DNA of 64,000 nt from Acidimicrobiia bacterium (GTDB lineage: Bacteria; Actinomycetota; Acidimicrobiia; Spongiisociales; UBA5794). Shown here piece after piece: positions 26,877-33,043 of this stretch. Under the pieces are notes generated by a model. It had not been told where the DNA came from. It searched no databases and saw only the letters and a list, made by a program, of their open reading frames with translations. The stretch spans positions 71,144 through 135,143 of the forward strand of contig JALSQW010000056.1 of NCBI GenBank assembly GCA_026985095.1, in the 5' to 3' direction. Positions within the stretch are counted from its first letter, which is position 1; each line of letters begins with the position of its first letter. Both the position numbers and the translations under genes were made by a program.

Positions 26877-27944
26877 TCAGGCGACGGCGTCGGCCACGGC
26901 CCGGCCCATCTCGGTCGTCCCGACGGCCGGACCCCCGGCGGCGATGTCGGCGGTGCGCAGCCCCGCCGACAGCACTCGATCGACCGCCCGTTCCACGAGG
27001 TCGGCCTCTCGAGGTAGGTCCAACGAGTGACGCAACGCCATGGCCGCCGACAGGATGGTCGCCAGCGGGTTGGCCAGGTCCCGTCCGGCGATGTCGGGTG
27101 CCGAGCCGTGAACCGGCTCGTACAGTCCCGGAACCTCCGACCCGAGGGAAGCCGACGGAAGGAGCCCGAGCGATCCCGGAAGCGTGGAGGCCTCGTCGGT
27201 GAGGATGTCGCCGAACAGGTTGCCCGTGACCACCACGTCGAAGTCGCGGGGTCGGGACACGACGTACATCGCCATCGCATCCACCAGCACGTGTTCGAGC
27301 TCGACGGTGGGGAACTCCTCTTCCACCACCCGTTCCACCGTCGCCCGCCACAATCGGGAGACCGCCAGGACGTTCGCTTTGTCCACCGAGGTGAGGCGAC
27401 CCTTCCGGCGGGCCGCTGCCGCAGCCGCGACCCGGACGATCCGTTCGATCTCGGGCACCGAGTAGGTCATCGAGTCCCCCACGACCGTGCCGTCGTCGGA
27501 GACGATCGTGTCGCCGAAGTAGATGCCGCCGGTCAGCTCCCGGATGAACAGGATGTCGACGCCGGCAACCCGTTCGGGTCGGAGCGGCGAGGCGTCGACG
27601 AAGGCGTCCCTGACGGTGATCGGACGGAGGTTGGCGAACAGTCCCAAGCCCTTGCGGATCCCCAACAGCCCATCCTCGGGTCGGGTCTTGGCCGTCGGGT
27701 CGTCCCATCGGGGACCACCGACGGCGCCGAGGATGATGGCGTCGGCCTGGCGGCACGCCTCGAGCGTCGAGGCGGGAAGCGCATCTCCGGTCTCGTCGAG
27801 GGCGATCCCTCCGATGAGATGCTCCTCGAAGGTGAACCGGTGGCCGCCGTGGGTCGCGATCGCCTCGAGGACCCGGCGGGCTTCGCGGACCACCTCCGGG
27901 CCGATCCCGTCGCCAGGGAGCAGGACGATCCGAGCGTCGGTCAC
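26877..27944 (-). CDS. leuB: 3-isopropylmalate dehydrogenase
   Basis: A 355-residue enzyme that oxidatively decarboxylates 3-isopropylmalate in leucine synthesis. Motifs: [14 protein letters not shown] at the N-terminus, [43 protein letters not shown] and the NAD-binding [20 protein letters not shown]. The GTG start overlaps the leuA stop (GTGA). Last enzyme gene of the ilv-leu operon; leuC and leuD are not in the window. Confidence 0.95.
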
Positions 27945-29479
27945 CGATCCTCCTCGAGCACGGACGATGCCCGGTCGGCGGCGACCTTGTTCAGTGCCGC
28001 CACGAACGCCCGGGCGGAGCCCTCGACGACGTCGGTGGAGACGCCCCGGCCCGAATAGGTCGTGGCACCCGTCCTGATGATCACGTTCACCTCGGCCATC
28101 GCGTCGGCTCCCGACGTCAACGGACTGACGCGGTAGTCGACGAGCTCGGCCGTGATCTCCAAGGCATCTTGGATCGCCACGAAGGCGGCGTTCACCATGC
28201 CGTCGCCGCTGGAGGTCGCGTGGAGCTCCTCTCCGCCTCGCGAGATCGCCACTTTCGCCTCCGGGACCTCGTCGCTGCCTCCCTCGACGTGGATCGAGAT
28301 GAGCTCGGCGACGTCGTACCGGGCGGTCGTCTCCTCCCCGATGATGGCGCGGAGCCCCTCCTCGGTGATCTCGCCCTTCCGGTCGGCGAGCTCCTTGAAC
28401 CGTTCGAAGGCTCGCTGGAAGTCCACGTCCTCGAGGACGATGCCCATCTTGTCGAGGGCATCGGCGAAGGCAGCCCGCCCCGAATGCTTGCCGAGCACCA
28501 GCATCGAGCGGTGACCGATCGACTCGGGGTCCATGATCTCGTAGGTCTCGCGGGCTCGGAGGACGCCGTGTTGGTGGATGCCCGACTCGTGGGCGAAGGC
28601 GTTCCGTCCGACGACCGCCTTGTTGTACTGGACCGGGTAGCCGGTGAGGCGGGACACGAGCCGCGACGTCTCGAAGATCTCGGTCGTGTCGGCGCCGATC
28701 TCGACGCCGAAGAAGTCCTGGCGGGTCCTCACCGCCATGATGATCTCCTCGGTCGAGGTGTTCCCTGCCCGCTCCCCGATGCCGTTGATCGCCCCTTCGA
28801 TCTGGCGGGCTCCGGCCTGGATCGCCGACAGGGAGTTCGCCACGGCGAGGCCGAGATCGTTGTGGCAGTGCGTCGAGATGATGACGTCTTCGTTGTCGCC
28901 CCGGACCTCGGCGTACACGCGTTCCATCAGCGCCACGAAGTCGGCGGGGAGGGCATAGCCGACCGTGTCGGGGATGTTGATCGTGGTCGCTCCCGCTTCG
29001 ACCGCCAGACGGCAAGCCTCGATGACGAAGTCCGGGTCCGAGCGCGTCGCGTCCTGGGGGGAGAACTCGACGTCGTCGGAGTATCGACGAGCCCGCGCCA
29101 CACCTTCCTGGATGGATGCGAGCACCTCGGCCGGGGTCATCCGCAGCATCTGCTCCATGTGGATGGGGGATGTGGAGTTGAACACGTGGATCCGGCTGTG
29201 GGCTGCCGGTGCGAGCGCCTCGGCGGCGGCATCGATGTCGTCGGGATGGGTTCGGGCCAGGCTGGCGATGACCGGCCCTTCGACCTCCGAGGCGATGCGG
29301 TGGACCGCCTCGAAGTCGCCGGGCGACGACGCGGCGAATCCCGCCTCGATGACGTCGACCTTCAAGCGGGCGAGCTGAGAGGCGATGGCGACCTTGTCGT
29401 CGGGTGACAAGGCGATGCCGGGGGCCTGTTCCCCGTCGCGAAGGGTGGTGTCGAAGATGATGAGACGGTCGGCGGTCAT
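27941..29479 (-). CDS. leuA: 2-isopropylmalate synthase
   Basis: A 512-residue enzyme, the first committed step of leucine synthesis (acetyl-CoA plus 2-ketoisovalerate). The N-terminal barrel has [30 protein letters not shown] and the metal-binding [14 protein letters not shown], with [12 protein letters not shown]; the C-terminal regulatory domain (about 370-512) is the leucine-binding LeuA_dimer part. This is the shorter bacterial LeuA type rather than the 600-residue-plus actinobacterial type. AAGGAG Shine-Dalgarno upstream. The 116-bp gap to ilvC holds a short ORF and hairpin that may control it. Confidence 0.95.
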
Positions 29480-29557: not shown

Positions 29558-29599
29558 CTCGGTAAGGACCAGGCCCGACGTCGGGGAGATCTGGGTCAT
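29540..29599 (-). CDS. Short ORF (19 aa) coupled to ilvC, candidate leuA leader peptide
   Basis: The frame reads [19 protein letters not shown] and stops. Its ATG (29599-29597) overlaps the ilvC TGA as ATGA, so ribosomes finishing ilvC could re-initiate on it. It contains Leu-Val-Leu and a final Leu but no long run of leucine codons. The stop codon falls inside a strong hairpin (29530-29557), and leuA starts 60 bp further on. A role as leader peptide is my inference; chance occurrence is possible. Confidence 0.4.
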
Positions 29600-30609
29600 A
29601 CGTCGTCCTCGGGGGTCTTGTCGGCGAGGAACGGCATCATCTCGCGGAGGCGTCGTCCGACCTTCTCGACGTCGTGGTCGGCCATCTCGGCTCGCGCTCG
29701 CTTCAGGTTGGGGGCGCCGGCGGTGTACTCGGTCATCCATTCCTTGGCGAACTCGCCGGACTGGATCTCGGCGAGGATGCGGCGCATCTCGGCTCTGGTG
29801 CGGTCGTCGACGATCCGAGGCCCGCGGGTGACGTCGCCGTACTCGGCGGTGTCCGACACCGAGTGGCGCATCCACGAGATGCCGCCTTCGAAGAGGAGGT
29901 CGACGATGAGCTTCAGTTCGTGGAGGACCTCGAAGTAGGCCATCTCGGCGGGGTATCCGGCTTCGACGAGGGTCTCGAACGCGGCCTGGATGAGGGAATC
30001 GACCCCGCCGCACAAGATGACCTGCTCCCCGAAGAGGTCGGTCTCGGTCTCGTCTGCGAAGGTCGTCTCGATGACCCCGGCCCGGGTGCCGCCGATCCCG
30101 TACGCGTAGGAGAGGCCAAGGGCCTTGGCCTCTCCGGTGGCGTCCTGATGGACCGCGAGCAGGCTCGGTACGCCGCTGCCTTCGACGTACTGGCGGCGGA
30201 CCAGGTGTCCGGGTCCCTTGGGAGCGACCATCACCACGTCGACGGTGTCGGGCGGGGTGATGTAGCCGAAGTGGACACCGAAGCCGTGAGCGAAGAACAA
30301 CGCGTCGCCGGGTTCCAACCGGGGGCGGATCACCTCGTCGTAGAGCTGCGGCTGGATCTGGTCGGGGACGAGCATCATGATCACGTCGGCCCATTCGGCG
30401 GCGGTGGCCGGGTCGACGACCTTGAGCCCGGCGTCGGAGGCCATCCGCGTCCGTCGGGATCCTTCGCGGAGTCCGACGATGACGTCGACACCGGAGTCCT
30501 TGAGGTTCATGGCGTGGGCGTGGCCCTGGCTGCCGAAACCGATGACGGCCACCTTGCGGCGGGCGATCAATGACGGATCGGCGTCGGCGTCGTAGTAGAT
30601 CGTGGTCAT
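29596..30609 (-). CDS. ilvC: Ketol-acid reductoisomerase, class I
   Basis: A 337-residue enzyme converting acetolactate to dihydroxyisovalerate. Rossmann motif [17 protein letters not shown]; the coenzyme loop [15 protein letters not shown] has Ser-Arg-Arg, consistent with NADPH preference; metal ligands lie in [19 protein letters not shown] and in [12 protein letters not shown]. Length fits class I. Sits 21 bp downstream of ilvN in the same operon. Confidence 0.96.
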
Positions 30610-30630: not shown

Positions 30631-31137
30631 TCAGGCCGTCCGGAGACGGGATCGTTTCGTCGTGGTCTTGAGATCCTTGGCCATGGCGATGCGCCCCGAC
30701 TTGACCAGGCTGGTGATGCCGTAGGTCCGCATCAACTCGAGGAAGTCGTTGAGTGCCGACGGTTCGCCTGCGACCTCGAACGTGACGGTCGACGCGCCGA
30801 CGTCGACGACCTTCGCCGCGAAGAGGTTGGCGGCGTCGAGGAGCTCGCCGCGTCGGGCAGCTTCGGCGTTCACCCTGACCAGCATGATCTCCCGCTCCAC
30901 GGTCTCGGTGGGATCGAGTTCGGTGACCTTCACCGTATGGACGAGCTTGTAGAGCTGCTTGACGATCTGCTCCATCTCCGGTCCGTCGACGACGACCGTC
31001 ATCCGCGACAGGCGGGGGTCCTCGGTCGGTCCGACCGTCAGGGAGTGGATGTTGAACCCGCGGCGGGCGAACATCGACGAGATCCGCGCCAGCACCCCCG
31101 GCTTGTTCTCCACGGTGACCGAGATGACGTGCTTCAT
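30631..31137 (-). CDS. ilvN: Acetolactate synthase small (regulatory) subunit
   Basis: A 168-residue regulatory subunit. The N-terminal ACT domain ([40 protein letters not shown]) binds valine in the family; the C-terminal half (about 80-160) interacts with and activates the catalytic subunit. The ATG overlaps the ilvB TGA, ensuring stoichiometric synthesis. Confidence 0.95.
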
Positions 31138-32852
31138 GTCAGGTCCTCCGGCCCCAGCACGACGTGGTCGTTGGACCCCCCGGCCGGGATCATCGGGAAC
31201 ACCATCGCTTCGGGATCGCACTTGAACTCGACGACGACGGGGCGGTCGTTGATCGCCAGGGCCTTCTCCAGTGTCGGGACGACCTCGGCAGGGGTCTCGG
31301 CCCGCAACCCGACGCATCCCATCGCTTCGGCGAGCTTGACGTAGTCGGGGGTGTGGTCGGTGAGGTCGACCGCCGAGTACCGCTCGCCGTAGAAGAGCTT
31401 CTGCCACTGTCGGACCATTCCCAGCGACGTGTTGTTCATGACCGCGATCTTGACGGGGATCCCGTCGATGGCGGCGGTGATGAGCTCCTGGGACGTCATC
31501 TGGAAACAGCCGTCGCCGTCGATGGCGAACACCGTCTCGTCGGGCATGCCGACCTTGGCGCCGATCGCGGCGGGAACGGCGTACCCCATCGTTCCGAGTC
31601 CTCCCGAGTTGATCCACGTCCGTGGGCGTTCGAAACCCCAGAACTGGGAGGCCCACATCTGATGTTGACCGACCCCGGCGACGATGATGGCGTCGCCTCC
31701 CGTGAGACGGTGGAGCTGCTCGATGACGTACTGCTGTTGGATGGGGCCGTCGGGGTCCTGGTGGTAGGTGAGGGGATGTTCCTGTTGCCAGGCGGCGAGC
31801 TGGGAGAACCAGGGCTCCCGGTCCGGCGGCTCGGTGCCGTCGAGGAGGGAGGCCATGGTTTCGATGAGCTGCTCGAGGACGGTACGGGCGTCACCCACGA
31901 TCGGCACGTTCGCCTCCCGCACCTTGCCGATCTCGGCGGGGTCGACGTCGACGTGGATCACCTGGGCGTCGGGGGCGAAGGTCGTCACGTCGCCGGTCAC
32001 CCGGTCATCGAAGCGGGCTCCGATCGTGATCAACAGGTCCGATCGCTGCATCGCGGTGATCGCGGTGTAGTTGCCGTGCATGCCGGGCATCCCCAAGGCC
32101 AGAGGATGGGAGTCGGGGATCGCTCCCCGGGCCATCAACGTGGTGACCACCGGGACATTGGCCTGTTCGGCGAAGTGGCGGAGCGCCTCGGAGGCTCCGG
32201 CCTTGATGATGCCTCCGCCGGCGTACAGGACCGGCCGTCGGGATCGGTGGATCAGCTCGACGGCCGCTTTGACCTGCTTGGGGTGGCCCTTGACCGACGG
32301 CTTGTAGCCCGGGAGGTCGATCTCGCCCGGGCGATGCCATGGAATGGTGGCGTTGAGGATGTCCTTGGGGATGTCCACCAGCACCGGTCCGGGCCGACCG
32401 GTGCCGGCCAGGTGGAACGCTTCGGCGATGACGTCGGGCAGCTCGTCGACGCGGGTCACCAGGTAGTTGTGCTTGGTGCACGGCATCGAGATGCCCCAGG
32501 TGTGGGCCTCCTGGAAGGCGTCCATGCCGATGGCCTTGGTCGCCACCTGGCCGGTGATGGCGACCACCGGCACCGAATCCATGTAGGCGTCCTGGAGGGG
32601 GGTGATGAGGTTCGTCGCTCCGGGGCCCGACGTGGCGACACACACGCCGACCTTGCCGGTGGCGTGGGCGTATCCCGAGGCCATGTGCCCTGCACCTTGT
32701 TCGTGTCGGGCCAGGACGTGGCGGATCGGGCTGTCGAGGATCGGATCGTACGCGGGCAGGATGGCGCCGCCGGGAACGCCGAAGACCACGTCGACCCCGG
32801 CATGTTCGAGGGCTCTGATCAGGGCCTGGGCTCCGGTGAGTGTCTCTGCCAT
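31134..32852 (-). CDS. ilvB: Acetolactate synthase large (catalytic) subunit
   Basis: A 572-residue ThDP enzyme that condenses two pyruvates to acetolactate, or pyruvate with 2-ketobutyrate. The N-terminal domain has the ThDP-activating Glu in [17 protein letters not shown]; the ThDP/Mg motif is [19 protein letters not shown] with the [12 protein letters not shown] continuation. Start [11 protein letters not shown] chosen since homology begins there and the upstream frame passes through a terminator hairpin. Expression is probably set by the attenuator at 32895-32983. Confidence 0.96.
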
Positions 32853-32894: not shown

Positions 32895-32921
32895 AAAAAA
32901 CCCTCCGGGGGTACGGAGGGT
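32895..32921 (-). terminator. Intrinsic terminator of the ilvB attenuator
   Basis: On the transcribed strand ACCCTCCG-TACCCC-CGGAGGGT forms an 8-bp stem directly followed by TTTTTT (32900-32895), a canonical Rho-independent terminator. It lies between the leader peptide and the ilvB start (43 bp before the ATG), so it must be read through for ilvB expression. Confidence 0.9.
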
Positions 32922-32923
32922 CG

Positions 32924-32948
32924 GGCGCATACGGGGTCCGTATGCGCC
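32924..32948 (-). promoter_or_regulatory. Pause hairpin of the ilvB attenuator
   Basis: GGCGCATACGG and CCGTATGCGCC form a perfect 11-bp stem with a 3-nt loop. The stem begins at the last base of the leader peptide stop codon and ends 2 nt before the terminator stem. A ribosome at the leader's end would occlude it, the arrangement expected of a ribosome-mediated attenuator. Confidence 0.8.
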
Positions 32949-32983
32949 TACATGAGGATGAGTACGAAGCTGGTAGTGGTCAT
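32948..32983 (-). CDS. ilvB leader peptide [11 protein letters not shown]
   Basis: An 11-codon ORF on the minus strand reading [11 protein letters not shown] then TAG. Four successive codons specify the three branched-chain amino acids, the end products of the operon. It is preceded by a promoter (33016-33043) and followed by a hairpin and intrinsic terminator before ilvB. Ribosome stalling on the Val/Leu/Ile codons when charged tRNA is scarce should favour read-through. Leader peptides of this kind precede ilvB in other actinobacteria. Confidence 0.85.
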
Positions 32984-33015
32984 CGGTTCGTCCGTCGTCT
33001 CCGGGTCGTGCGGCG

Positions 33016-33043
33016 AGTATGCCACGGTGCCACCGTCTGTCAA
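33016..33043 (-). promoter_or_regulatory. Promoter of the ilv-leu operon
   Basis: A perfect -35 TTGACA (33043-33038) is separated by 16 bp from CATACT (33021-33016), a 4-of-6 match to TATAAT. The expected transcript start is about 25 nt upstream of the leader peptide ATG. Confidence 0.7.

Follow-up and report, generated by a model that had tools for sequence, protein, structure and literature searches.

The amino acid operons of enteric bacteria (trp, thr, leu, ilv and his) carry, before the first gene, a leader peptide with codons for the pathway product, followed by a terminator. Comparable arrangements have been described for ilvB of Actinomycetota. In Mycobacterium tuberculosis, the ilvB1NC leader has Leu-Val-Val-Ile control codons including GUA and a U-run terminator; this leader is translated, and a terminated RNA of ~120 nt is formed (PMC13236596). 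Replacement of LVVI by AAAA abolished induction, and disruption of the terminator mitigated the phenotype (PMC13236596). The Corynebacterium ilvBNC/ilvB-II motif similarly contains a uORF rich in branched-chain amino acid (BCAA) codons, with CUU and GUA as control codons (PMC10272879, PMC11857589). Candidate ilvB leaders, each with a short BCAA-codon ORF and a terminator, have also been listed for Corynebacterium, Mycobacterium and Streptomyces, and their exact mode of regulation was called unclear (PMC1262725). The same paper describes the LEU element of actinobacterial leuA, a pseudoknot in which leucine codons pair with the leuA Shine-Dalgarno site. It also cites work on Streptomyces coelicolor in which mutation of the ilvB leader codons reportedly had no effect, which argues against codon sensing in that species.

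Acidimicrobiia are not in the genome list of that study (PMC1262725), and our literature search found no publication that treats Acidimicrobiia together with attenuation and a leader peptide, although this does not establish novelty. Here we describe a leader of this general build in front of ilvB in an Acidimicrobiia bacterium; in this class, such leaders also precede cimA, leuA, leuB and leuS.

Anatomy of the leader in front of ilvB

The window, that is, the whole stretch of 64,000 nucleotides analyzed here, contains the elements listed in Table 1. The first-pass annotation had described a TTGACA/CATACT promoter with a 16-bp spacer, an 11-codon leader ORF ending in Val-Leu-Ile-Leu-Met, an 11-bp hairpin starting at the leader stop codon and an intrinsic terminator with a six-T run before ilvB. 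The promoter was recovered to the base, the ORF was present where it had been placed, and both hairpins were found again, the first of them (hairpin 1) sharing its first base with the last base of TAG.

Table 1. Window coordinates of the leader elements and of the genes behind them
Feature	Position	Strand	Description
Promoter	33016..33043	(-)	-35 TTGACA 33043-33038, 16-nt spacer, extended -10 TGG-CATACT 33021-33016
Leader ORF	32948..32983	(-)	11 codons plus stop; ATG at 32983, TAG ending at 32948
Control codons GTA CTC ATC CTC	32965-32954	(-)	inside the leader ORF
Hairpin 1	32924..32948	(-)	11 bp, 3-nt loop; arms GGCGCATACGG/CCGTATGCGCC, 32948-32938 paired with 32934-32924; proposed antiterminator
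Intrinsic terminator	32895..32922	(-)	stem GACCCTCCG/CGGAGGGTT, 32922-32914 paired with 32907-32899; six-T run 32900-32895
ilvB	31134..32852	(-)	acetolactate synthase large subunit, NCBIfam NF005860; first gene of the operon
ilvN	30631..31143	(-)	acetolactate synthase small subunit, NCBIfam NF008864
ilvC	29596..30609	(-)	ketol-acid reductoisomerase, NCBIfam NF004017
leuA	27941..29479	(-)	2-isopropylmalate synthase, NCBIfam TIGR00973
leuB	26877..27950 (upstream limit approximate)	(-)	3-isopropylmalate dehydrogenase, NCBIfam TIGR00169

The leader reads ATG ACC ACT ACC AGC TTC GTA CTC ATC CTC ATG TAG, and its start lies 32 nt past the -10 box. By inspection of the sequence, a strong Shine-Dalgarno site at normal spacing was absent from the leader, which counts against reading it as an attenuator. 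The promoter-like site and the terminator-like site were each unique in 900 bp (0.1 and 0.3 expected, respectively), hairpin 1 and the terminator stem were separated by 1 nt, and folding of the leader was 4.8 s.d. more stable than that of its shuffles. The window showed no match at the gathering score of Rfam covariance models, in a comparison that covered the ppGpp riboswitch, the T-box and the described leaders, and the leaders showed none at E up to 0.5.

All five genes scored above the curated NCBIfam cut-offs and, as judged from their spacing and strand, would be transcribed together. In the window, leuA and leuB follow ilvB, and a single leader carrying Val, Leu and Ile codons would serve them all. 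The 3' arm of hairpin 1 also holds an ATG in frame with ilvB (32930-32852, minus strand), and a start there would lengthen the protein by 26 residues. Translation of ilvB nevertheless appears to begin at the ATG at 32852, which is preceded by GGAG.

Conservation of the leader and choice of its codons

Next, IlvB of the window was queried against 99 relatives, a named genome collection and 111 genomes of the phylum. The genomes analyzed were mostly MAGs, and the nearest IlvB relatives in the named collection came mostly from Acidimicrobiia MAGs. Of 190 distinct sequences upstream of ilvB, 140 had the order seen in the window, with a leader rich in Val, Leu and Ile followed by a hairpin and a terminator; in 130 of the 140, hairpin 1 began within the stop codon, at its first, second or third base. 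Among the order-level relatives, 76 of 78 had a promoter of the window type (67 with TTGACA, 48 with CATACT). Many of their leader start codons lay 9-13 nt past the -10 box, so those leaders would be leaderless or nearly leaderless. A covariance model built from ilvB leaders only (R1) matched 213 of 247 Acidimicrobiia genomes (182 of the 209 better ones), usually twice per genome.

The structure itself covaried. Changes on both sides were seen in seven of the eight modelled pairs of hairpin 1, and the whole-structure covariation score was 0.294 compared with 0.192 +/- 0.010 for shuffles, none of 500 reaching the observed value. When the partner strand of hairpin 1 was slid by 1-3 columns, pairing fell from 93% to ~40-50%. 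The gap between hairpin 1 and the terminator was 2.9 +/- 2.0 nt (range 0-8), while the distance from terminator to gene was 50 +/- 33 nt. Judged by its conservation in the class, the unit in the window is beyond chance.

Two observations concern the distribution of the leader. A second IlvB paralogue in another genome (L082, G095:C66) was preceded by a separate leader with this layout, whose peptide ends LIIIH*. In family f8 of the window's order (G056, G063, G069, G076, G083, G088, G098 and others), IlvB was mostly missing at E up to 1e-100, as was the attenuator motif; these genomes are possibly BCAA auxotrophs.

We then analyzed the leader codons. In 30 genomes, GTA made up 29 of 38 leader Val codons (76%), compared with 68 of 1444 (4.7%) in ilvB itself (Fisher test, 6e-29). 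CTT and ATT were also enriched in the leaders. In the genes of the window, GTA accounted for 2 of 218 Val codons. The use of this rare codon points to sensing at the codon level by a particular tRNA, which agrees with the known choice of codons in attenuators.

Most genomes carried a second copy of the leader. The window's own genome has it before cimA (L227, G000:C29:86452-86539, minus strand), with the leader MSASIIIIA* containing four ATC codons; cimA encodes citramalate synthase, the entry step to isoleucine. We tallied the six codons preceding the stop in 51 further, non-ilvB leaders, a sample rather than an exhaustive count, with one example gene of each kind identified by NCBIfam. The cimA leaders contained 87 Ile and about 2 Leu codons. 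In the leuA leaders (both protein forms), 54 Leu codons were counted, and Ile was not among the commonest residues. The leuB and leuB-ilvE leaders had 22 Ile and 18 Val, with Leu not among the commonest. In a single case, a leader ending RLLLT* preceded leuS, the leucyl-tRNA synthetase gene (L287, G018:C91:4555-4639). Since R1 was made from ilvB leaders only, the model did not favor this switch of codons.

A change of codons with the target gene is a natural experiment, and it provides the strongest evidence for a sensor role of the leader codons; on this comparison, we regard codon sensing as well supported. The first-pass annotation had named relatives that lose the Val-Leu-Ile-Leu codons while retaining the hairpins as the observation to look for. 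We found instead that the ilvB relatives keep Val/Leu codons, and that copies without them precede genes of a different product and carry the codons of that product. The conservation of the leader in related genomes, also raised there, was borne out by the counts given above. Its proposal of a BCAA attenuator is consistent with every comparative test, namely conservation of promoter, leader, hairpin and terminator as a unit, covariation, rare control codons and product-matched codons.

These data also bear on two explanations in which the leader peptide has no regulatory part. The first is that a protein or small molecule binds the unit formed by hairpin 1 and the terminator, the ORF being incidental. 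In its favor, primary sequence is partly retained in hairpin 1 (GCGCA/TGCGC), and leuA leaders repeatedly show CACATA loops; however, the codons change with the gene product while the hairpins stay, the stop codon is fixed within 3 nt of the hairpin, and Rfam families gave no match, so that we consider this very improbable. The second, a constitutive partial terminator lacking regulation, gives no reason for conserved rare control codons that match the pathway product, and we give it hardly any credence at all.

The loop of hairpin 1 in leuA leaders was CACATA or GCATA in 9 of 14 cases (L278, L284, L286, L289, L292, L303, L306, L309 and L313). Near the cimA leader of the window's genome, a weak match to the Rfam L31-Actinobacteria ribosomal protein leader was observed (L227:278-331, plus strand; E 0.052, below the gathering score).

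A second model, R2, which lacked the leader codons, was run on six genomes. At E up to 2.4e-4, it found only ilvB, cimA, leuA and leuB sites, barring L330. This match (9.2e-6) and L335 (9e-4) resemble the ends of tRNA genes followed by a terminator. In the window's genome, R2 gave exactly two convincing sites, those of ilvB and cimA. Versions of the attenuator for Trp, His or Thr were not seen with R2 in the six genomes.

Search for a pairing antiterminator

In enteric leaders, an upstream segment pairs with the terminator when the ribosome stalls. The equilibrium probability of the terminator was tried as a measure of this switch; it was near 1 in most of the E. coli controls too and thus uninformative, so we used instead the sequestration of the terminator 5' arm by upstream sequence before the 3' arm is made, calculated for each ribosome position. 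Six E. coli leaders served as positive controls. With the ribosome on the control codons and on the stop, respectively, sequestration was 0.83 and 0.02 for trp, 0.99 and 0.00 for thr, 0.76 and 0.00 for leu, and 0.81 and 0.02 for ilvL. The his and ivbL leaders gave weaker signals in the same direction, with ~0.6 on the initial His codons of the former and 0.27-0.73 along the run of Val codons in the latter.

In contrast to the four clear controls (0.76-0.99), the window leader gave 0.03 at Val and 0.04 at the stop. Among 145 actinobacterial leaders with the ribosome on the first GTA, the median was 0.013 and the maximum 0.28, all values referring to pseudoknot-free folding. A minority of cimA, leuA and leuB copies reached 0.5-0.8, mostly on the last codon before a non-BCAA leader end. 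The mycobacterial-type LVVI/LVVL leaders (L187, L190 and L191) showed 0.00-0.09 at the first GTA and a 1-nt abutment of the two hairpins without overlap.

A classical three-segment attenuator, in which a stalled ribosome lets a hidden antiterminator form by pairing with the terminator 5' arm, is the rule in enteric leaders and was evident in the E. coli controls; the values for the window and for the 145 leaders nevertheless make it improbable here. The first-pass annotation had found no clear alternative antiterminator pairing and had allowed for a switching mechanism other than the textbook enteric one. Both statements are upheld, the first for the relatives as well: the lack of an antiterminator in that reading mirrors the sequences and was no oversight. 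Its description of the attenuator as complete requires qualification. The promoter, leader, hairpin and terminator are present but a classical antiterminator was not found, and therefore the description holds only if hairpin 1 is itself the antiterminator.

A proposed role for hairpin 1

The effect of a ribosome on hairpin 1 was calculated with a footprint of 26 nt, as in the M. tuberculosis study (PMC13236596). Across the leaders, a ribosome on the first GTA masked a median of 8% of the hairpin 1 pairs, and a ribosome on the stop masked 100%; in the window, the numbers were 0 and 11 of 11 pairs. The M. tuberculosis ilvB1NC leader behaves in the same way, its first hairpin being free with the ribosome on GUA and masked with the ribosome on the stop. 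The arrangement differs, however, since the mycobacterial-type ORF enters or passes through a longer first hairpin, whereas the window ORF stops where a short hairpin starts. The two M. tuberculosis structures were described as mutually exclusive (PMC13236596), although in the mycobacterial-type leaders examined here the first hairpin stands 1 nt from the terminator and has no bases in common with it. The C. glutamicum antiterminator and terminator share a boundary trinucleotide of 3 nt (PMC11857589), whereas the window hairpins abut without shared bases.

Hairpin 1 was taken as the antiterminator because of this footprint geometry, the 1-nt abutment and the M. tuberculosis and C. glutamicum data. 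We consider it reasonably probable that the region is a translation-dependent transcription attenuator of ilvB-ilvN-ilvC-leuA-leuB in which hairpin 1 antiterminates by abutment. Transcription would begin just past CATACT, and a ribosome trailing the polymerase would translate the 11-codon leader. When charged Val (GTA-reading), Leu or Ile tRNA is scarce, the ribosome would stall ~4-5 codons before the stop, with its leading edge just short of hairpin 1, which could then fold. Folded hairpin 1, 1 nt before the terminator stem, would block closure of the terminator in the polymerase exit channel, and the operon would be transcribed; the block would be exerted by abutment, the bases being separate from those of the terminator. 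When amino acids are plentiful, the ribosome would proceed to the stop and hide all of the hairpin 1 5' arm, leaving the terminator free to fold and end transcription.

The direction of regulation, with the roles of the stalled and the terminated ribosome, we infer from the experiments on the M. tuberculosis and C. glutamicum ilvB leaders. Abutment as the mode of action of hairpin 1, sufficient to block termination, is likewise what we infer. Because hairpin 1 and the terminator can coexist in equilibrium folding, the idea that abutment excludes the terminator is a hypothesis on polymerase geometry. Furthermore, some leaders have gaps of 6-8 nt, wider than a purely steric model would comfortably allow.

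Alternatively, hairpin 1 may serve mainly to pause the polymerase so that the ribosome can catch up, with antitermination arising otherwise, for example by direct contact of ribosome and polymerase. Pause hairpins precede the terminators of enteric leaders, and the distance from the end of hairpin 1 to the point at which the terminator 5' arm is complete is roughly the length of the exit channel. Such a pause has been proposed in C. glutamicum (PMC11857589). However, pausing alone would leave unexplained why a stalled ribosome prevents termination, and the enteric pause hairpins have a separate antiterminator, which is absent here; we regard this explanation as unlikely, if less so than a hidden pairing antiterminator. 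The leader probably lets a ribosome sense BCAA and turn the operon on or off accordingly.

More tentatively, at somewhat below an even chance, we propose that the leaders form a class-wide family of BCAA attenuators in Acidimicrobiia, in which an abutting hairpin without shared bases antiterminates as a steric or kinetic obstacle rather than through exclusive pairings. Related leaders elsewhere in Actinomycetota probably belong to the same reading. The puzzle left in 2005 by actinobacterial ilvB leaders, which had leader peptides and terminators but no clear mode of action, would thereby become a testable model. The model draws on about 200 aligned examples before five kinds of target gene, and it predicts the amino acid sensed by each leader in Acidimicrobiia, a class for which our literature search found no study of attenuation.
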